Source: Bacteroidota bacterium (GTDB lineage Bacteria > Bacteroidota > Ignavibacteria > Ignavibacteriales > Ignavibacteriaceae). Taken from it: a DNA stretch of 64,000 bases. The stretch spans positions 62,001-126,000 of the forward strand of contig JAJYDC010000004.1 in the NCBI GenBank assembly GCA_021777835.1. The letters are read 5' to 3'. Both the position numbers and the translations under genes were made by a program. Shown here piece by piece: positions 37,090 through 49,270 of this stretch (position 1 is its first letter; each line of letters starts with the position of its first letter). The notes beneath the pieces are model-generated. The model did not search any database and had not been told where the DNA came from. It worked only from the letters and a program-made list of their open reading frames with translations.

Positions 37090-37530
37090 TTAGCTTTTAT
37101 CGAGAATGCCCTTGCCGTTAGTTATTAGTCTTGGCAGACTTTTTCCTACATATTCATTCCATCCTGATTCACAATCCTTGTAACATTCTATATTCGGTAC
37201 CAATCCTTTATGGGTCATTTCAATTGTGGCAATATTATTTTTCTCTGAAATATTCCAGACTATACTTGTGTCTTTCCATTCGGTTTTATTTTGGAGCCAA
37301 TCCAGATAGCAATCGGTAACCTGCCAGACCAATTTTTTATAAGGAACCGATTTGATCACTTTGAAGTCAACTGTAGTTTTTCCAAATGTAACATTGAATT
37401 CATCATTTAAATTTATTGCGCTGCCTTTAAAGCTGGATGCCCACCAGTCGGCAACTTTAGTAATATATTCAAATGCTTCTTTAGCTGTCACGCCTGAGCT
37501 AAAGCTTTTTTGATAATCTTGATTTTTCAT
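37090..37530 (-). CDS. SRPBCC-fold protein, single domain
   Basis: A 146-residue cytoplasmic protein of the SRPBCC (START/Bet v1/AHSA1-like) superfamily, folds that enclose hydrophobic ligands. Visible pattern: KEAFEYITKVADWWASSF at the N-terminus, then VWQVTDCYLDWLQNKTEW, and MTHKGLVPNIECYKDCESGW before the C-terminal helix. The same motifs recur in the two-domain protein upstream, so the proteins are paralogues. The ECYxDCExGW segment with two cysteines is a recognisable mark of this subgroup. It is the last gene of a same-strand series SRPBCC/VOC; ligand and function are unknown. Confidence 0.82.
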   Translation of the reverse strand: MKNQDYQKSFSSGVTAKEAFEYITKVADWWASSFKGSAINLNDEFNVTFGKTTVDFKVIKSVPYKKLVWQVTDCYLDWLQNKTEWKDTSIVWNISEKNNIATIEMTHKGLVPNIECYKDCESGWNEYVGKSLPRLITNGKGILDKS

Positions 37531-37561
37531 TTTTACTCCTTTGCAATTTGGTTAATTAAAA

Positions 37562-38059
37562 TTATATCTTATGATGATGTTTTAATGCCGCTTCACTCAT
37601 CGCTTTCTCCTTTAAAGCCTCGGCTTCTTTTTCTTTAGCAGTATTGGAGCCTTCTTCGGTTCCCTTATAATATGATTGATTCTCGTTAATTGGGAGAAGC
37701 TGGAAAACTAGTCCTCCCGGCGCTTGAAAATAAAGATATGGAACTGATTGAGGCAGTCCGGAAGGTATATCAAGCTTCATAGCGCCGAAATCGAGAATCT
37801 TTTGCTTCATTTCTTCAACGTTGTCGGATTTGATTTGCAACCAGAGGGTTCTTGGTGATCTTAAGAATTCACTTTCATCAGAGACATTGCCATACCTAAA
37901 CAGAATGTAGAATTCTTCTTCCAGATGAAAGATGTCCTTTTCGTTATCCTCTTTCACAATTTTGCCACCGAGGATATCACAATAGAATTTACGAATGCTG
38001 TCCCGGTCTTTCCGCGGAACCATAATAGCTGAAGCGTTTCCAATAATTACCTTTGCCAT
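37562..38059 (-). CDS. VOC/glyoxalase-fold protein
   Basis: A 165-residue protein of the vicinal-oxygen-chelate superfamily: the first strand and helix are SAIMVPRKDRDSIRKFYCDILGG, the later half has LWLQIKSDNVEEMKQKILDFG and ends in the strand YLYFQAPGGLVFQLLPI. The positions that usually hold metal ligands (histidine in the first strand, glutamate in the last) are Ser/Ala and Gln here, so it may bind a ligand without metal. The charged C-terminal tail (about 135-165) is predicted helical. A paralogue lies two genes upstream; they alternate with SRPBCC genes. Confidence 0.82.
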   Translation of the reverse strand: MAKVIIGNASAIMVPRKDRDSIRKFYCDILGGKIVKEDNEKDIFHLEEEFYILFRYGNVSDESEFLRSPRTLWLQIKSDNVEEMKQKILDFGAMKLDIPSGLPQSVPYLYFQAPGGLVFQLLPINENQSYYKGTEEGSNTAKEKEAEALKEKAMSEAALKHHHKI

Positions 38060-38092
38060 AATTTATATCTATTAAAATAGTTGGAAATGAGT

Positions 38093-38965
38093 TTAATCAT
38101 CATTGATAAAGTTGAAAAGCCACTCTTTTAATACCATCTCCCAAAACAGAACAGAGTGGTCATAACATTCCTTATCGGGAACAAGACCTAGATGAGTAAA
38201 ATTAAGCACAGTCTTGGCGGCTTGGGAAGTTAATTCAAAAATCATTTTTGTGCCTGTCCATTCAGACTTATCTTTCTTAATCCAGTTGAGTTTACTTTCG
38301 GTTACAAACCAAACAGTCTTTTTATCAGGTATAACTTCAATCAACTTTTGTTTTGAATAATGATTTTCGCCATGTTTAAAGACAAATTCATCATTAAGTT
38401 TTGTGCTTTGTCCTTCAAATTCGGTTTGTTTTCCATCTGCAATCTGTGTCCACCATTTTGAAACATCGTTGATGTGTTTGAAAACATCTTTCTGAGATTT
38501 TGAAAACTCAATCGTTGCCCTATAACTTTTATCTTTCGTTTCACCTTTTCCCGTAGTAAAATAAGATAATAAGCTTTTTGTGATCCAGTGAGTCCAACCT
38601 GTTTCACAGTCCTTATAGCACTCAACGTTAGGTGTAAGACCTTCATGAATAAAATTCAGCGTGGTCACTCCATTATTTTCAGAGAGGTCAAAAATTAATT
38701 TTGTGTCTGCCCATTCTTTTTTATCGGTATACCAGGGCAAATAACAATCTGTGACTAACCAAACAATTCTTTTTCCGGGGATTAATTCAAATACGGTAAA
38801 GTTAAAGAAAGAATCGCCACCCATCTTTACGATGAACTTATCGTTTTGTTTTTCGGAATTTCCACTAAAGGAAATTCCCCACCACTCAGATACATTACTA
38901 ATCCTTTTTATAGCCTTTCTTATGCTAATATTTGCAGAAATATTACAGTTAAAATCTTTTCCCAT
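38093..38965 (-). CDS. Tandem two-domain SRPBCC-fold protein
   Basis: A 290-residue protein composed of two SRPBCC domains (about 1-140 and 145-290). The first has VWLVTDCYLPWYTDKKEW and IHEGLTPNVECYKDCETGW; the second has VWFVTESKLNWIKKDKSEW and THLGLVPDKECYDHSVLFW, so the second has lost the DCExGW ending. Both resemble the single-domain protein at the end of the series, which implies duplication and fusion. No signal peptide, so cytoplasmic. It lies between two VOC genes with gaps of 33 and 108 bases on the same strand. Ligand unknown. Confidence 0.83.
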   Translation of the reverse strand: MGKDFNCNISANISIRKAIKRISNVSEWWGISFSGNSEKQNDKFIVKMGGDSFFNFTVFELIPGKRIVWLVTDCYLPWYTDKKEWADTKLIFDLSENNGVTTLNFIHEGLTPNVECYKDCETGWTHWITKSLLSYFTTGKGETKDKSYRATIEFSKSQKDVFKHINDVSKWWTQIADGKQTEFEGQSTKLNDEFVFKHGENHYSKQKLIEVIPDKKTVWFVTESKLNWIKKDKSEWTGTKMIFELTSQAAKTVLNFTHLGLVPDKECYDHSVLFWEMVLKEWLFNFINDD

Positions 38966-39073
38966 TATTGTGTATCTCTTAATTGTTCATTTTTTGATGT
39001 GATAAATTAATCTCGCAAAGCATCTTTATATCCTTTCCTTAATTTTTTAAATTTCCAAGTATTGCAAATTAAT

Positions 39074-39502
39074 TCAAACGTTCCGCTCATGTTTGGAGAG
39101 GTCTTCATTAATTTCAACAAGCCTGAATACCTGTCCGCCCGGAGCTTGAAAATAGAGGTGGGGATCGGGTACATTGAGTACTTTCACGCCGTAGGAGACA
39201 ATTCTCTGTCTCATTTCGTTTACGTTGTCAGTCTTAAGCTCCAAAAAGATCGACTTCAAAAAGTCGTCCTTACTTAAGGTACTTTCGGGGGAGTAATTCA
39301 CACCCTTATCGGCTCCTTGCCCGTTGCCGTCGCCATAAAGGAATGCAATGTAAAAGTTATCTCCGATTTGAATGTCATCCTTATCGTTGAACTCTCTTGT
39401 GAGTTTACAATCCAGAACATAGCAATAGAATTTACGTATACTATCCCTTTCGGTTCTGGGGACTCTTACTGCCGAATGGTTTCCAAAAATTACTTTAGTC
39501 AT
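39074..39502 (-). CDS. VOC/glyoxalase-fold protein, paralogue
   Basis: A 142-residue VOC protein that begins MTKVIFGNHSAVRVPRTERD, the same N-terminal layout as the downstream VOC gene (GNxSAxxVPRxxRDSIRKFYC), and ends with LYFQAPGGQVFRLVEI. A histidine (GNHSA) is present near the first strand, but the last-strand glutamate is Arg/Leu, so classic metal binding is again doubtful. It opens the series VOC, SRPBCC-SRPBCC, VOC, SRPBCC, all on the minus strand, downstream of an AraC regulator on the same strand. Confidence 0.82.
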   Translation of the reverse strand: MTKVIFGNHSAVRVPRTERDSIRKFYCYVLDCKLTREFNDKDDIQIGDNFYIAFLYGDGNGQGADKGVNYSPESTLSKDDFLKSIFLELKTDNVNEMRQRIVSYGVKVLNVPDPHLYFQAPGGQVFRLVEINEDLSKHERNV

Positions 39503-39733
39503 TTCATTTCTCGTTGTTGTTAATTTAAATTTTATTGAGGACGGTTAGGTGTCGATTATAATATTTACCCGGTCATTAACATTAGTGAGTTGAGAATATT
39601 ATACAGAGGCGGTTAATAATATATAATAAATTTTGATTCTTGAACAAGTTGACATATACATCTCCTATAAAATTATTTTTCTAAGGCTAATCTAAAGTCT
39701 CCCCGAATTAAAATATTGTAAAAATGCGAAGTG

Positions 39734-40579
39734 TTATTGTAGTGACAATCGCCGTCCGAACTCGTTTGAAACGTTTTGGGAAAAACTAAGGGGAGAAAAC
39801 CCAGTCATTCTTTTAAAATCTTTTATATAATGTGCTTGATCATAATAATATTCATTCAGCTCGTTTTTAATTTCGCTATAGAGGCGACCTTGTGCCCAAT
39901 TCTTATAGAATTTTTGAAAGCGGAATATTCCTGCAAGAACCTTCGGAGAGAAGCCGATATGATTCTTGAATAAGATTTCAAGGTATCGTTTTGAGTATCC
40001 AGTTTTATTTACTAAGACTGAAATTGGTATTAACCCGTTTGTAGATTTTAAGGAGTTGACGCAATAGTTTACCAAAAGATTATTTGAAATGGGGCGTTTT
40101 TGTTTAAGTTGATTTTGCCGAAGAATTTCAATCATTTGACGCTGGATTAAATCTATTTTGTCTTTTGCGCTATTTAGGCTGCAGACAGTATCATTTATTT
40201 CTCTGCCCCATTTCCCTAATAAATCATCGAAGTTCAAAAGCTGGTTTGTAGTTTCAGCCATTGGAATTCCAAATACAGGATATGCGCCATGAGGATAAAA
40301 CTCAATACCGATGAACGCGGTCTTTTTGTTAGGAGTACTTAGCTTTACGGGGATATCTCTACTACCGGCAAAGTATACTGTGTGTTCCTTACTATTCTGA
40401 AGGATTCCCCTGACTTCGGAAATGATTGAATTTTCACAATTAATTATGAGTTTAGAACAGCCGTTAGGTACAGCTAAATTGGAATCCGAGGGCGGCATTC
40501 CCACAGGGCTTTCGAACACCCAAATGTAATGTATGAAAGGCTTCAATCCGACATAAGGTTCGAAAAACGACAGCTTCAT
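39734..40579 (-). CDS. AraC-family transcriptional regulator
   Basis: A 281-residue protein. The N-terminal domain (about 5-170) has the FEPYVGLKPFIHYIWVFES start and IGIEFYPHGAYPVFGIPMAE segment of the DUF6597-type sensing domain common in AraC regulators of this phylum. The C-terminal AraC DNA-binding domain includes KTGYSKRYLEILFKNHIGFSPKV and YYDQAHYIKDFKRMTGFSPLSF. It lies upstream of the VOC/SRPBCC series on the same strand, separated by about 230 bases, and may regulate it. An IS3-family element ends 105 bases upstream of its start codon and may have replaced its promoter. Confidence 0.9.
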   Translation of the reverse strand: MKLSFFEPYVGLKPFIHYIWVFESPVGMPPSDSNLAVPNGCSKLIINCENSIISEVRGILQNSKEHTVYFAGSRDIPVKLSTPNKKTAFIGIEFYPHGAYPVFGIPMAETTNQLLNFDDLLGKWGREINDTVCSLNSAKDKIDLIQRQMIEILRQNQLKQKRPISNNLLVNYCVNSLKSTNGLIPISVLVNKTGYSKRYLEILFKNHIGFSPKVLAGIFRFQKFYKNWAQGRLYSEIKNELNEYYYDQAHYIKDFKRMTGFSPLSFSQNVSNEFGRRLSLQ

Positions 40580-40718: not shown

Positions 40719-41625
40719 TTAATCAAATAAACATAGTTGATTTACATTTATAAGATCTTTCTCTTCGTTATCAATGGTGTACATATGTAAACCTTTTCTT
40801 TGTTCAATAGGCAGTTTTTTTTTATAATTTTCAAAGCTAAGCGGAGTCATTTTTCCTAGATTCCAATGAGGCCGTTCATTATTGTAAAGATAAACGACTA
40901 GCTTAAGCTTCTGTTTTAAGGATGGGTAATCATTGATTGTCCAATGATTCAGATATTCATTTTTAATAATTCCGTTTACTCGTTCAACAAATGCATTTTC
41001 ATAGACAGAGCTGCACATGATGATTTTAATATTCCGGCTTTCTAAAACTTTTACATACTCATTGCTTGTGTATTGAATTCCTCTGTCAGAATTGTGAATA
41101 AGCGATTGGTAATTGCTAATGCCCCTTGTTTTTAAGGCATTATTAACGCGTATAAATTTGCCTTTGCTTGAAGTGTTGGATAAGCAATACTTCCAATAAT
41201 TCTACGTGAATAAACATCCTCTATAAATTGTAAATAATAAAAAGTATCTCCCAATTCAAAGTATGTAATATCGCTGACCCAAACATTGTTTATATCATAT
41301 ACAACAAGTCCGTTAATAAGATTTTGATATTTATAAATCCTTGATGAATGAGTTGTCTTTTGAAAATTTCTTATTCTTTGAACACCATAGCCATTGGCAA
41401 CAGCAAAAGTAATGAATTTATATCTGCCGATATTCTCAGGACGCAGCAATTCGTACATCTTCTTTGCACCCATTTGTGGGTGCAAAACTCTTAGCCCGGC
41501 TATAGCAGATAAGATTAACATATTGTCCTGATCTTCTTTACTATGGCGGTCAATAAAGGAAAGATGCCCTTGTTTGGATATATTAACCATTTCATAAAGT
41601 TGTTTCAATCTCCAGTTGTGTTTTT
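40719..41625 (-). pseudogene. IS3-family transposase OrfB, frameshifted
   Basis: The DDE transposase half. The first part (to a stop at 41132-41134) includes the IS3 N-terminal region and the first catalytic aspartate (VWVSDITYFELGDTFYYLQF). Reading then resumes in another frame from about 41145: NNALKTRGISNYQSLIHNSD with the second aspartate, then ENAFVERVNGIIKNEYLNHW with the catalytic glutamate, ending CLFD at 40719. A single indel near 41135-41150 restores a continuous protein, so it is either decayed or a sequence error. OrfB is entered from OrfA by a probable -1 slip on AAAAAC near 41621-41626. Confidence 0.87.
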
Positions 41626-42048
41626 CACGGTTGACTCTGAACCTTTCGAGTGTTTCGTGATAATATTTTTTTTAAAGTCTATACCTAACTTGTCACTGGC
41701 TAATTCTATTAGCTTGTTTAGATAGTCTATTTCAATCTGTTTTTGACCAACTATCTGTTCTAGTTCACAGACTTTCTTAAGGAGTCCTTCTGTCTTTTTT
41801 GATTCACTCTCAAGTTCCATGACTAACCTTGTTCCTTTTTTATAGCCCTTGGAATATTTATACAGCCACTTATATACTGTTGTTCTGGAAATACCGTACA
41901 AAGATACAAGTTTACCGATCGAGATTTGTTTCTCTTCGAGTTCCTTTACTTTACTTCGTTTAAAGTCTTCGCTAAAGCAACGATTATATTTACTCCTAGA
42001 ACTAAATTCATTGCTATTTTCTGTCATGTCCATCTCGTTTCCTTTCAT
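41605..42048 (-). CDS. IS3-family transposase OrfA
   Basis: A 147-residue DNA-binding half of the transposase. The helix-turn-helix reads SIGKLVSLYGISRTTVYKW, followed by a leucine-zipper-like coiled coil (GLLKKVCELEQIVGQKQIEIDYLNKLIEL) used for multimerisation. It overlaps the OrfB frame, and the sequence GTG AAA AAC near its end offers a -1 slip that would create the OrfAB fusion, the active transposase in this family. The start gives 20 residues before the first recognisable similarity (RSKYNRCFSEDFKRSKVKE); an internal start is possible. Confidence 0.9.
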   Translation of the reverse strand: MKGNEMDMTENSNEFSSRSKYNRCFSEDFKRSKVKELEEKQISIGKLVSLYGISRTTVYKWLYKYSKGYKKGTRLVMELESESKKTEGLLKKVCELEQIVGQKQIEIDYLNKLIELASDKLGIDFKKNIITKHSKGSESTVKNTTGD

Positions 42049-43276: not shown

Positions 43277-46200
43277 TTATTTCAATAGAACAAATTTCTT
43301 TATAGCATTGTATTTACCAGCCTGTAGCCTGTATATATATACTCCGCTTGCAAGATGATATTTCTCTGAAGAAAGCTGAAAATTGTATATGCCAGCTTGC
43401 TGGTCAGTATTAAGAAGTGTAGCAACTTCCTGCCCTAGGACATCGTATAACTTTAGAACAACGCGGCTCTCTACAGGAAGATCGTATTTAATAGTTGTAG
43501 TCGGGTTAAACGGATTAGGGTAATTCTGATACAATTCAAACTGAGCTGGTATAAGTTTTAAGTCAACAACCTTTGAATATTTATATTGACCATTATTATC
43601 AATCTGCTTAATTCTATATTCAAAGTTATTTCCGCCTATAGGATTACTATCGATGAATGAATACTTCTTGGGAGAATTGCTGTTGCCGGAACCTTTTACA
43701 AATCCAATGTCATTCCAATTTTGAATTATTACTTTTGAATTTTGAATTGCTCTTTGAACTTCGAAGCCAAAATTATTCACTTCAGTTGCAGTATTCCAAC
43801 TAAGTTCTACTTTATCTCCAATGTTATTCGCGGTAAAAGTAACCATTTCTATAGGCAGAGCGCCGCTGCTAATATTATATTTGTTCGCTAGATATTGTTC
43901 AACTTTACTTCTATCTGAGGAGCTAAGTAATGAATCATAAATTATAATTTCAGCAATATCTCCATTAAAAGCATAAGTACTGTCCTGCCGTGTCCCAATA
44001 CTTATCGATACATCATTTGGATTTCTTAAATCTGTGGCTGAAGTTCCGCCATCCAAACCGTCTACACTTACAGCGCCTCCGGAGGATGATGCTCTAACTT
44101 CAAAAACATGTGCATTACCATCCGAATATTCACCGGCAGTACCTTCATCTATGTATGTAGTAGTAGTAAGCGGAATATATCTAACACCAACTCCGTTTAA
44201 CTGAATCTCATATTGCGCACCTGTTCCGCTGAAGAGAAACTCGGGTTGTGCTGTATAAGATGATTTTGCGACAATAAATATTTCATAATCTGAATTTTGA
44301 ATTCCGATTGCAGAAGATGACTGCAGATTAAGCCTGGAAGCAGAACCATTAAATACAAGAGCTGATTTACCATTTATTTGATTTGTCCGGTATAATGGCT
44401 TTGCTGCTGAATTGTACTCAGTAGCATTATCTAAATTTCCAGAGGCATCGTACCATGTACCTACATCGGTACTGTCTATAGTTCCCGTTACACCGTCATC
44501 AGCTCTCAGCCATAGCTTCAACGAAGTTTTTGTTATTGATGTATCAATGCCTACTTCTCCAACAGATGAGACAGAAGTTCCTCCGGTGTTAGTAGATTCC
44601 AGTTTATAATAATATATATTCCCGGTAATAAGCCCGGTCAATGTTGCACTAACATTAGCTGTAGTTGAGCCACTGCCCGCACTTAGAGAAGCTGTTGAGT
44701 CAATTAATGAATTTACATTTGTACCATAATAAAATTTATAGGTAGCTGCTGTGCCGCTTGGATTTACATCTCCGCGAAGAATAACCGATGTGCTGCTTAA
44801 TATTGAATCGGGTTGAAGTGTTACAACAGGGAAGGGAACAGTTGTTTGTTGACTTCCTGTTACCGGCGAAACTGTTAAATAATTCTGATCGGTGTTTGTT
44901 CCGTTGTACTCAAACACGCTGAAGTAATAAGTCGTAGAGCCGGATAAGCCTGAAATTGTAACAACGCTATCACTACCACTATAAACAACAAAATTCCCGG
45001 TACCTATTTGAGACCCCAATCCGAATATTGAATCGGCAGTATAGGCCTGCCCGTCTGTTGGTGCTGAATCTACCGCACTGCCACTTTTAGCTAAGATTAG
45101 CCGATAAGCGCCATTACCTTTATTTACTTTTACTGACATTGATACATCCTTCACATTGCTGAAGGAAACATTGCTTGCTTGAACTGTAGGTTCAGTTACT
45201 GTTGTAACCGGAATATTATATCTTTGAGATAGATATTGCGTAATAGACTGTCTTTGACTAAGGCTTAAGTTTGAATTATAAACAATTACTTCAGCAATAT
45301 CTCCATTGAAATATAAGGATGCATTTCCTCTTCGTCCTAAGTCTAATACACCTGCATCAGAGCTTTGAGTATTTGATAATACATATCCTCCTGCCGATCC
45401 GTCGACATGGATTACACCTTCTGATGAGGTTGCCTTTATATCAAAAATATGCGCCTGCCCATTCGTATAATCATTACTGTTTCCTTCATCTAAATAAATG
45501 CTTCCTGCAGGTATGAAGCGTGCTCCTTGGCCGCCATTAAGCTGTAATTCATAATTACCTGGAGTTCCGCCCGCAATAAACTGAGTATTTGTAGAGGATG
45601 ATTTGGCTACAATAAACATTTCGTAATCTGAGTTCTGAATACCCAGGCTTGTAGATATTGGAAGTGAAAGGTATGAACTAGAGCCGTCAAAACTTAGTGC
45701 CGGCTTAGAATCAATTCCGGAAGTCCTGTATAATGGTTCATCAGCTGGGGTAGACTGCTCAGCATTATTTAAATTTCCCGAGACATCATACCAGGTTGAA
45801 ACAGAAGTGCTGTCCTTTGTGCTTGATGTCGCTTCATCCGAGCGCAGCCATAACTTTAGATTTGTACTTGATAAGGAAGTATCAGTTATTGCCGCATATA
45901 CAGAAGAAGTAGATGTTCCTCCGGAATTAGTTGCAGTTAATTCTTCATAGTATACTGTGCCATATGCCAATCCCGTTATTTGCATTCTAACAGTATCCGC
46001 CGAGGAACCACTCCCCGCATTTTGAACTGATGTTGAATCAATTAATGAATCTGGGCTAGTTCCATAAGCAAATCTGTATGTCGAAGAAGCACCATTTGGA
46101 TTTACAATTCCACGAAAGTACATTGATGAGCCAGTGATTGCCGAATCCGATAAGATAGAATCAGTTGGTGGAGTATAATTTGTTGTAAAATTCCCGGTTG

Positions 46201-49200
46201 CTGGTGATGTGGTCAGATAATTCTGATCCGTGTTGGTTCCGTTAAATTCATATGCACTGAAGTAATAATCTGTATGGCTGCTAAGCCCGGTTACAGTAAC
46301 TACACTATCTGTTCCCTGGTAAACGACATAATTCCCAGTGCCGAGTTGGGAACCTGATCCGAATACTGAACTAGCTGTATACACCTGTCCGTTCGAAGGA
46401 GCCGTATCTACAGCACTCCCAGATTTCCCAATAATAATTCGCTGTGCACCGTTGCCTTTTGTTACCTGCAAGTTAATTGAATTATTTGTTACATTACTTA
46501 TCGTCATGTTGCTTGCTTGTATTGTTGGCGTACTTACTGTCGTGTATGTTATGTTATATTTTTGAGACAAATAATTTGCAACTGCCAGCCTTTGACTTGA
46601 AGTCAGATTTGCATTGTATATAATTATTTCTGCAATATCACCGTTAAAAAAGTAGCTGCCGTCTCCTCTTCTGCCAATAACAAGATTGCCTGCATCAGAG
46701 CTTTGAGTATTTGATAATACATATCCACCTGCTGATCCGTCAACGCGAATAATACCTTCCGATGAACTAGCTTTTAATTCGAAAATATGCGCTAGTCCAT
46801 TTGTATAATCGTTACTGTTTCCTTCATCTAAATAATTGCTTCCTGCAGGAATGAAGCGTGCTCCTGAACTTCCGTTTAACTGCAATTCGTAATTGCCTGC
46901 AGTACCTCCTTCTACAAACTGCAGACTACTAGAGGATGATTTAGCTACTATAAACATTTCATAATCCGAATTTTGTAATCCTAAACTAGCTGCTGATGGT
47001 AATGCAAGGTATGTACTCGTACCATCGAAGCTTAGTGCCGGCTTGGAGTTTATCACTGAGGCCTGGTATGAGGGTTCATCGGCTGATGTCGATTGCGTTG
47101 CATTATTACTATTTCCAGATTTATCAAACCATTCAGAAACCTTTCCTCCGGATGTGTCTACGCCACTATCAGATGCCAGCCATAATTTTAAGTTTGTACT
47201 GGAAATTGAAGTATCGTAGATAAATGAACCAAGTGAAGAGGTATCAGATCCATAAGAGTTTGATGTTAAAATCCTAAAATAATAAAATGTTCCGGCAGTA
47301 AGACTGGTTAGATTTGCACTCACATCTACAGTTCCGGAGCTTCCAGCACTTTGAGAGCCTAAAGTATCAGCTAATGCGGATGGATTAGTGCCGTAGATAA
47401 AACGATATGAAGTAGAAATATCATTAGTATTTACGCTACCATTGATAGTAGCCGAGCTTCCAGTTAGATTAGTTACAGGAAGAATTGAAGCGGTAGGCAA
47501 TACAATATTTCCTGAATAGATATAATAATCCGAGCTATTTGCAGAACTGTTTGCATTTGCACCTGTTCCGAAAGAATCATTACTAAAAAGATAACTGCCG
47601 GAATAGTTGAATACTGCACCGCCGTAGCTAGTTCCATTAGCAGATACACCCGTTCCACCAGCTGCAGTATCATTATTAAAGATACAGTTTTCTATAACCA
47701 TGGCGCCATTATTGTTAAAAATAGCTCCGCCTAATCCTGCACCACCACCTCCACCGCCGTAATTCGCGCCACCGTATCCTGCTCCAAACCCACCAGCACC
47801 CGCAAAGCCGCCTCCGCCCCAATCATTAGAGCCCGAACCTCCTCCACCTCCAAAACCTCCACTTCCGCCGTTTCCACCTCCGCCGTCAAAACCTTCACCA
47901 CCCCCGCCTCCAAATCCGCCAGGATAGCCATCAACATTATAAAGATCTCCACCATTTCCTCCTCCTATCCCTCCAAGAAGTCCACTGGATCCACCGCCTG
48001 ATACTATTGCGCTTCCGCCAAATCCGCCTCCGCCGCCCGTAACAGTTCCATAGTAGTTTCCACCGATTCCTCCAGCAGCTTTATTCCCGCTAAAAGTTAA
48101 ATTATTTACCAACACTGTTCCAGAGTTTATAAATAATGCTCCTCCCATTCCTGCAGCTCCGCCCCCACCGTTAATTCCGTTGCCTCCTACACCGTATCCG
48201 TTGCTTATTGTAAAATTCTGAAGTGTAACTTCCGGTGAGGCTGGAGCTGTAGAACTAAATGGGGAAACTCCGTCACCTATAAAGAATGGTCGATATAGAT
48301 TATTACCGTTGATTGTTAGACTACTTGGCCCCGGCCCGGTTAAAGTCGTATTGTAGTTAATTGCAGGAAGCGCACTAGTAAGGGTTATTGTTCCTGATAT
48401 TCCTGTCATATCGACATAAGCGGTATTTGATGATGCATTTGTGTTTATAGCATTAAGAACGTACCGGAGAGTACCGGTATTATAAGATCCGGTATCCGCA
48501 TCTGTGGTATTGGTTACAGCAAAATTAGAATAACTTATTCCATATTTCGATGCTAGATAAGACTCAACAAGTATCCTATCCGAAGCGGATAGTACTTTAT
48601 TATAAATAATTACTTCTGCAATGTCTCCGGTAAAAAAATAACTATTGACTGAAAGGCGCATTCCAAGAATAAGCGAACTATTAGAGGAACTTCTTACGTT
48701 AGTTAAAGTATTACCGCCATTGACACCGTCCACCCTAATTAAACCTTCAGTTGAAGAAGCCTGAGCATCGAAAATATGAGGTGAGTTATTTGCATATTCC
48801 CCGCTTGTGCCTTCATCAATGTAAGTTGAGCTTATAGGTATAAAGCGAGCTCCCGCAGCTCCGTTCAAATGCATTTCAAATTGTTCTAAATTTCCGGATA
48901 TTAAAAAACTTATATTGGTACTATCGGTTCTTGCCACAATAAACATCTCATAATCAGAATTTTGTATTCCCAGCGCCGAGTCCGTAGGCAATATTAGATA
49001 AGAATCATTAGCTGAAGTAAAATGAAGAGCCGGGTAACCGTTCAATGTGCTTGTAGTGTATGTAGGCTGGTTAGCTGCTGTAGGCTGCGTCGCGTTATTG
49101 CCGTTTCCTGACTGATCAGCCCAAGTAGACACAGATTGTCCGTTGGTAGTTGTCGAAGTTCCGGCATCGGCTTTAAGCCACAATTTTAAATTTGCTGAAG

Positions 49201-49270
49201 GTACCTGTGCATATAATTGTACGGCAATTAATATTAATAGGAAGCTAAAAATAATAGTAAATCTGTTCAC
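43277..49270 (-). CDS. Giant T9SS-secreted surface protein with four LamG-like repeats
   Basis: A 1997-residue exported protein with signal peptide [22 protein letters not shown]. Four repeats of roughly 210-230 residues follow the pattern [11 protein letters not shown], [10 protein letters not shown], [15 protein letters not shown], [16 protein letters not shown] and QYLSxKYNI, typical of LamG/concanavalin-A-like jellyrolls. They are linked by fibronectin-III-like modules ([20 protein letters not shown] type and LTVSPVTGS type). Between the first and second repeats is a beta-helix-like region with GGALFI and GGAIFN motifs and a glycine-rich insert. The tail is a type A sorting domain ([20 protein letters not shown]). 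Likely a cell-surface adhesin or glycan-binding protein; a propeller kinase and NarL regulator lie just upstream. Confidence 0.88.
   Translation of the reverse strand: [1997 protein letters not shown]
47720..48065 (-). repeat. Glycine-rich, GC-rich coding tract in the giant protein
   Basis: A stretch with dense GGN codons encoding runs such as [10 protein letters not shown] and GFGGGGGSG, in strong contrast to the AT-rich surroundings. It is flanked by GGAIF/GGALF motifs of the polymorphic-membrane-protein kind. Confidence 0.8.

Follow-up and report, generated by a model that had tools for sequence, protein, structure and literature searches.

An AraC-headed cassette of VOC and SRPBCC genes in an Ignavibacteriaceae genome: recurrence in several bacterial phyla and a putative role in small-molecule binding

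Introduction

The closest described systems in which VOC and SRPBCC proteins are found together come from enediyne producers: the dynemicin cluster carries DynE11 and DynU16, and the tiancimycin cluster carries TnmS1-3 and TnmB (PMC6804068). DynU16 has been proposed to be a biosynthetic cyclase (PMC8488855), so any analogy with these clusters concerns the pairing of the two protein kinds and not a proven pathway. In addition, ArsR-AHSA1 gene pairs of unknown function have been noted for Frankia (PMC4531530). Here, we analyzed a cassette that in 5' to 3' order reads araC, VOC1, SRP2, VOC2 and SRP1 (Table 1), located in a 64,000-nucleotide stretch of an Ignavibacteriaceae bacterium (assembly GCA_021777835.1, contig JAJYDC010000004.1, positions 62,001 to 126,000), which will be called the window. 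An earlier note on this DNA, made from the letters alone, described VOC and SRPBCC genes alternating on one strand and lacking signal peptides; the gene coordinates bear out the alternation, all on the minus strand, and no signal peptide was seen when the sequences were read by eye.

The best working analogy is the SRPBCC plus VOC sets of the anthraquinone-fused enediyne producers (DynU16/DynE11 and TnmB/TnmS1-3). Both folds occur together in one cluster, DynU16 has two SRPBCC domains as SRP2 does, and TnmS1 and TnmS3 are among the fold matches of VOC1. However, the cassette proteins are only ~15-18% identical to DynU16 and TnmS1, and the window has no biosynthetic cluster, the module consisting of a regulator and putative binding proteins alone. 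The calicheamicin proteins CalC, CalU16 and CalU19 belong with these closest systems, and the resemblance to the sequestration or self-sacrifice class (TnmS, CalC/CalU16) is by fold only. The Frankia pairs share with the cassette an SRPBCC gene beside a small regulator, and 5/21 VOC loci described below have such an ArsR, but the window has instead a DUF6597-AraC with its own conserved site, plus VOC partners. The fosfomycin-inactivating VOC enzymes FosA, FosB and FosX give the top Foldseek matches of VOC1 and a weak profile match (FosX), although the cassette VOCs lack the metal ligands and show no sequence relationship to them at a significant E-value. Bacterial Aha1-domain proteins (2m89) have the same fold and Pfam family as the cassette SRPBCC proteins, which differ in forming a divergent subclade with an ECYxDC motif and in showing no Hsp90 link.

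Results

Relatives of VOC1 were sought in 84,980 species genomes, where pattern seeds of VOC1 itself found 12 loci, in 297 genomes of the phylum and in 391 genomes of the class, the last with a profile of two rows. Because the seeds were VOC1 itself, more distant VOC relatives lie outside the first of these samples. The subfamily has 20 loci beyond the window, 21 in total, which are not independent of each other; they span at least five phyla, with named hosts in Bacteroidota, Actinomycetota (Actinomadura, Nonomuraea), Acidobacteriota, Pseudomonadota and Verrucomicrobiota. A co-directional SRPBCC domain lies no more than 405 bp from the VOC gene in 20/20 loci outside the window. The lack of any recurrent pairing in other genomes, which the earlier note had named as a refuting outcome, is thus not what was found. 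As a control, we took 51 genomes of the class and compared the 150 glyoxalase-family matches listed for them with the 150 AHSA1 matches listed, and at least 4/150 had an AHSA1 match within 1 kb and at least 7/150 within 3 kb, with chance expectations of ~0.2% and ~0.5%, respectively; since only the listed matches entered the comparison, and were made with Pfam thresholds and not with the SRPBCC profile used at the loci, 4/150 is a lower bound. The difference from 20/20 is very large even so, and comparison of 20/20 with 4/150 gives a Fisher p of ~2e-22, or ~5e-12 when only nine lineages are counted.

The cassette VOC is sporadic, being present in 5/297 genomes of the phylum and, as VOC matches, in three of the four other genomes of the window's own genus. 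The subfamily can be called rare, because neither the 395 genomes searched in the class of genome G616 nor the 297 in the phylum of genome G615 yielded any but the genome already known. No relatives of VOC1 were found in plasmids, phages or viral contigs, and there is therefore no known transfer vehicle. The window's genome also contains an unrelated cluster (G000:C2:17126-20464, or L087:5127-8465) of DoxX, AHSA1, DoxX_2, PhnB/glyoxalase-type VOC, RibD_C and DUF1801 genes, whose VOC falls outside the subfamily.

VOC-SRPBCC adjacency is the sole constant across the loci, as both the SRPBCC type and the regulator vary. The SRPBCC partners, assigned to types by eye first and then checked as clades, belong to the separate clades A, B and C or to more divergent types. 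The same DUF6597-AraC regulator is found in 9/21 loci and an ArsR-type helix-turn-helix (HTH) regulator in 5/21, with none recognized in the rest, and the order C-B-VOC is common to L054 (AraC) and L010 (ArsR). The VOC tree does not follow the phyla: VOC1, which is 72-73% identical to Actinomadura and Nonomuraea proteins, groups, with weak support, with three others (the copy of the same-genus locus L076 and two proteins of actinomycetes), and the partner of an Acidobacteriota VOC is a protein from the window's class. On balance, the cassette would seem to be a self-contained, horizontally spread small-molecule-response module. Further genes are present in some loci, namely a YCII gene in L056, L076 and (by similarity to L076) L077, a DoxX-like gene in L054, an RDD-domain gene in L076 and a PEP-mutase-type gene in L014 and L015. 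The last two are Mucilaginibacter cassettes with a 132-133 amino acid family without Pfam match between SRPBCC and VOC (L014:1613-2014, L015:4606-5004), followed by a second VOC and the PEP-mutase-type gene. In a Bacteroidetes genome, seven SRPBCC matches, one of them short, surround one VOC gene (L008:2907-6923).

The araC product matches DUF6597 with 55.7 bits (cut-off 27; 5.9e-15), and its HTH matches are sub-threshold (HTH_18 25.8 bits, cut-off 33.6, 1.3e-5; HTH_AraC 24.4 bits, cut-off 26.6), while the orthologue in L055 passes the HTH_AraC cut-off. It is assigned to the AraC family with a DUF6597 sensor domain, and six more genomes of the class have a close relative (phmmer ~1e-107) as the first gene of their cassette. 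When the gap between araC and VOC1 was compared with other loci, the 16-bp site TTCGCATTTTTACAAT was found to be identical in six AraC-bearing loci (the window, L076, L077, L078, L079 and L054), with one mismatch in L055 and a diverged TTCCGATTYGTACAAT in its place in L007 and L009; the flanking bases are not conserved. L076 and L077 have two exact copies each, heading two transcription units, and the second copy precedes a VOC gene. Across 15 whole genomes, all exact matches (8/8) sit at the cassette and none was found in those without an AraC cassette, with ~0.009 matches per genome expected from base composition; of 178 genomes of the class of L007 and L009, the cassette genome alone has TTCCGATTYGTACAAT. 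That TTCGCATTTTTACAAT might simply reflect conservation at the 3' end of araC was rejected as an explanation, since the second copies in L076 and L077 lie ~0.7-1 kb away, upstream of VOC genes. Its simplest reading is as a putative operator for the neighboring AraC, and on this reading the cassette is probably under AraC control. The linkage with SRPBCC genes, the presence of the regulator in 9/21 loci and an operator-like site restricted to cassettes lend good support to the earlier idea of a real module under AraC control.

A similar site with three mismatches (L053:7255-7270, minus strand) was observed upstream of a VOC-SRPBCC pair that has no adjoining AraC gene, which suggests that this pair is controlled by an AraC encoded elsewhere in the L053 genome. 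Directly upstream of araC, the window contains a broken IS3-type element with its transposase in three pieces (40719-42048), which may have replaced the native araC promoter. A scan for consensus promoters and terminators gave results at or near the shuffled background.

VOC1 and VOC2 are 50% identical, and both have Glyoxalase-type Pfam matches just under the cut-off; Pfam support for the VOC and SRPBCC assignments is weak because the proteins are divergent. The AlphaFold2 model of VOC1 (pLDDT 80) has a VOC fold and matches many VOC structures in Foldseek (best E 4.4e-7), with FosA/FosB at the top and the antibiotic-binding TnmS1, TnmS3 and UcmS2 among the matches, which places it in the VOC superfamily by fold. 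The metal ligands of E. coli GloA are H5, E56, H74 and E122; His9 of VOC1 aligns to His5 of GloA, so the first ligand is retained, while the other three positions hold A53, F86 and R127, the H5 and H74 positions being taken from the GloA alignment and those of E56 and E122 from inspection of the family alignment by eye. At the position of His9, VOC2 has Ala, as do its orthologues in L076 and L077, and retains none of the four ligands. The loss of the usual metal ligands that the earlier note reported therefore applies to VOC2 in full and to VOC1 in part, and neither protein has the ligand set of metal-dependent VOC enzymes such as glyoxalase I or FosA/FosB. His9, Glu88, Asp113, His115, Gln119 and Arg127 are the conserved polar residues of the family, and because His9, His115 and Arg127 are nearly invariant across the subfamily, loss of the metal site is a family trait. 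Comparison with L076 showed a nonsynonymous rate (dN) well below the synonymous rate (dS) for VOC2, SRP2 domain 1 and SRP1, and saturated dS for VOC1 and AraC. In the same-genus genome G481, the VOC1 orthologue is split between two frames (L078:7313-7733) and is probably a pseudogene; the SRP1 orthologue downstream of it is an open frame.

SRP2 scores above the Pfam AHSA1 cut-off (26.6 bits, cut-off 22.1) and SRP1 just under it (20.7 bits), the membership of SRP1 in AHSA1/SRPBCC being indicated by its confident helix-grip AlphaFold2 model (pLDDT 93.9) and a profile match to the Aha1-domain dimer 2m89 (2.1e-13). This dimer is also the best PDB match of SRP1, followed by DynU16, the two-domain protein of the dynemicin cluster, and its model further matches the calicheamicin self-sacrifice protein CalU16, human Aha1 and bacterial Aha1-domain structures. 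The phmmer matches of SRP1 to pentatricopeptide repeat proteins in the PDB were discarded as an artifact of a short match repeated along the chain, with no single repeat significant. Domains 1 and 2 of SRP2 are 42% and 31% identical to SRP1, respectively. Domain 1, which falls in its own subclade, shares 75-76% identity with SRPBCC genes that stand separately in L007 and L009, domain 2 has homologues that are separate genes in L007, and the L076 counterpart of SRP2 has a single domain. A tree of 50 domains assigns each window domain to a different subclade of one SRPBCC clade, and all three subclades also include domains of other genomes, so the window domains are old, differentiated paralogues and not fresh duplicates. 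Cysteines are conserved in this clade. The ECYxDCExGW motif, described earlier as common to the SRPBCC domains, is present in SRP1 and SRP2 domain 1 but is degenerate in SRP2 domain 2 (2/3 domains). It was rejected as a signature of the module, since in several loci the SRPBCC type found with the VOC does not have the motif; it is a marker of one SRPBCC subclade.

NCBIfam offered no useful family for the cassette proteins, and PADLOC gave 0 matches to its anti-phage defence models among the five of them. Elsewhere in the window, a 1997-amino-acid predicted surface protein with repeated similar domains (43277-49270) ends in a NYPNPFNPTT-type sorting signal, recognized by eye as typical of type IX secretion cargo.

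Table 1. Positions in the window of the cassette genes, domains and putative operator
Feature	Position	Strand	Description
araC	39734..40579	-	281 aa; AraC-family regulator, N-terminal DUF6597 and C-terminal AraC-type HTH
Putative operator TTCGCATTTTTACAAT, 16 bp	39715..39730	-	Directly after the araC stop codon, upstream of VOC1
VOC1	39074..39502	-	142 aa; single-domain VOC-fold protein
SRP2, whole gene	38093..38965	-	290 aa; two fused SRPBCC domains
SRP2 domain 1, SRPBCC type A, motif ECYKDCETGW	38540..38965	-	
SRP2 domain 2, SRPBCC type A, degenerate motif ECYDHSVLFW	38093..38539	-	
VOC2	37562..38059	-	165 aa; His-rich C-terminal tail
SRP1	37090..37530	-	146 aa; single SRPBCC domain, motif ECYKDCESGW

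Discussion

We lean towards the view that the cassette is an AraC-controlled module that binds and neutralizes, or processes, a hydrophobic or reactive small molecule. The function in small-molecule binding or detoxification is one that we infer from the predicted folds, the loss of metal ligands and the analogy with the enediyne sets. The DUF6597 domain would sense the incoming compound and the AraC protein would then act at the 16-bp site, turning the cassette on. The cavities of the SRPBCC proteins and the cleft of the VOC proteins would bind the compound, which would be sequestered, or its destruction promoted without a metal, and the cell may be protected in this way. With only one GloA-type metal ligand left in VOC1 and none in VOC2, sequestration or metal-free chemistry is favored.

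Several observations weigh against this interpretation. Within ~2.5 kb, the 21 cassettes have no recurrent antibiotic biosynthesis or exporter gene, and no search for a biosynthetic cluster was made in the remainder of the genome. FosA and FosB outrank TnmS1 by fold and yet are metal enzymes, and the fold match of VOC1 is modest (template modelling score ~0.5-0.65, ~15% identity). VOC1 keeps His9, Glu88, His115 and Arg127, which makes metal-free catalysis possible, and the role proposed for DynU16 is in biosynthesis, not in resistance (PMC8488855). The AraC regulator is absent from 12/21 loci. Finally, SRPBCC and VOC genes cluster loosely with DoxX, YCII, RibD_C and DUF1801 genes, so some of the linkage may be general to small stress genes.

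A wider proposal can be made only tentatively: the cassette may represent a hitherto unrecognized inter-phylum resistance or detoxification system. In it, a metal-free VOC protein and interchangeable SRPBCC proteins would together neutralize a class of reactive natural products that their environmental hosts do not themselves produce, with a dedicated sensor of the AraC or ArsR kind in control.

The alternative that survives best, though we regard it as rather doubtful, is an enzymatic pathway in which the SRPBCC proteins are cyclase- or hydratase-like enzymes and the VOC proteins metal-free isomerases or hydrolases acting on one substrate. The conserved polar residues of the VOC family and the cysteines of the SRPBCC clade could serve such chemistry, and the proposed cyclase DynU16 has two clustered cysteines in its pocket (PMC8488855). 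However, the metal site of most VOC enzymes is lost, no further enzyme gene recurs across the loci, and SRPBCC partners of very different clades interchange, which fits binding better than one fixed reaction.

The helix-grip fold is known to bind lipids and polyketides, which would agree with a module that binds or metabolizes one of the cell's own lipids or polyketide-like metabolites and not a foreign compound; the cavity of DynU16 fits a polyene (PMC8488855), and DoxX-like, RDD-domain and PEP-mutase-type genes are found in a few loci. We consider this alternative unlikely, as a cassette that is sporadic in the phylum and has spread between phyla more readily fits an accessory role that faces the environment. 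It is very improbable that these are ordinary AHSA1-like and glyoxalase paralogues adjoining by accident, the null explanation of the earlier note. All the proteins belong, as distant members, to common superfamilies, SRPBCC genes frequently occur in tandem (61/150 of the AHSA1 matches listed for the same 51 genomes have another no more than 1 kb away), and even ordinary VOC genes adjoin SRPBCC genes more often than chance predicts, but the counts contradict this null, with 20/20 linkage across phyla despite changing partners and regulators, as does the operator-like site specific to the cassette. A co-chaperone or protein-quality role, with the SRPBCC proteins as Aha1-like Hsp90 activators and the VOC proteins as accessory factors, is suggested by the Pfam name AHSA1 and the Aha1 structures (human and bacterial) among the fold matches, but is just as hard to credit, since AHSA1 is the name of a very broad family in bacteria and regulators are the only genes that recur next to the cassette in more than two loci, so that no link to Hsp90 (HtpG) is seen.

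All the component families are known. No description of this VOC-SRPBCC pairing was found in the open-access papers searched and, judged on those papers, the conserved pairing and its operator appear to be undescribed. With a VOC subfamily found only beside SRPBCC genes, a dedicated regulator and a 16-bp site, a group of hypothetical small genes becomes a testable unit. If the cassette indeed neutralizes a natural product, the two-fold sequestration strategy of producers would have an environmental and mobile counterpart, and the AraC protein and its site could be used as a sensor for finding the ligand.

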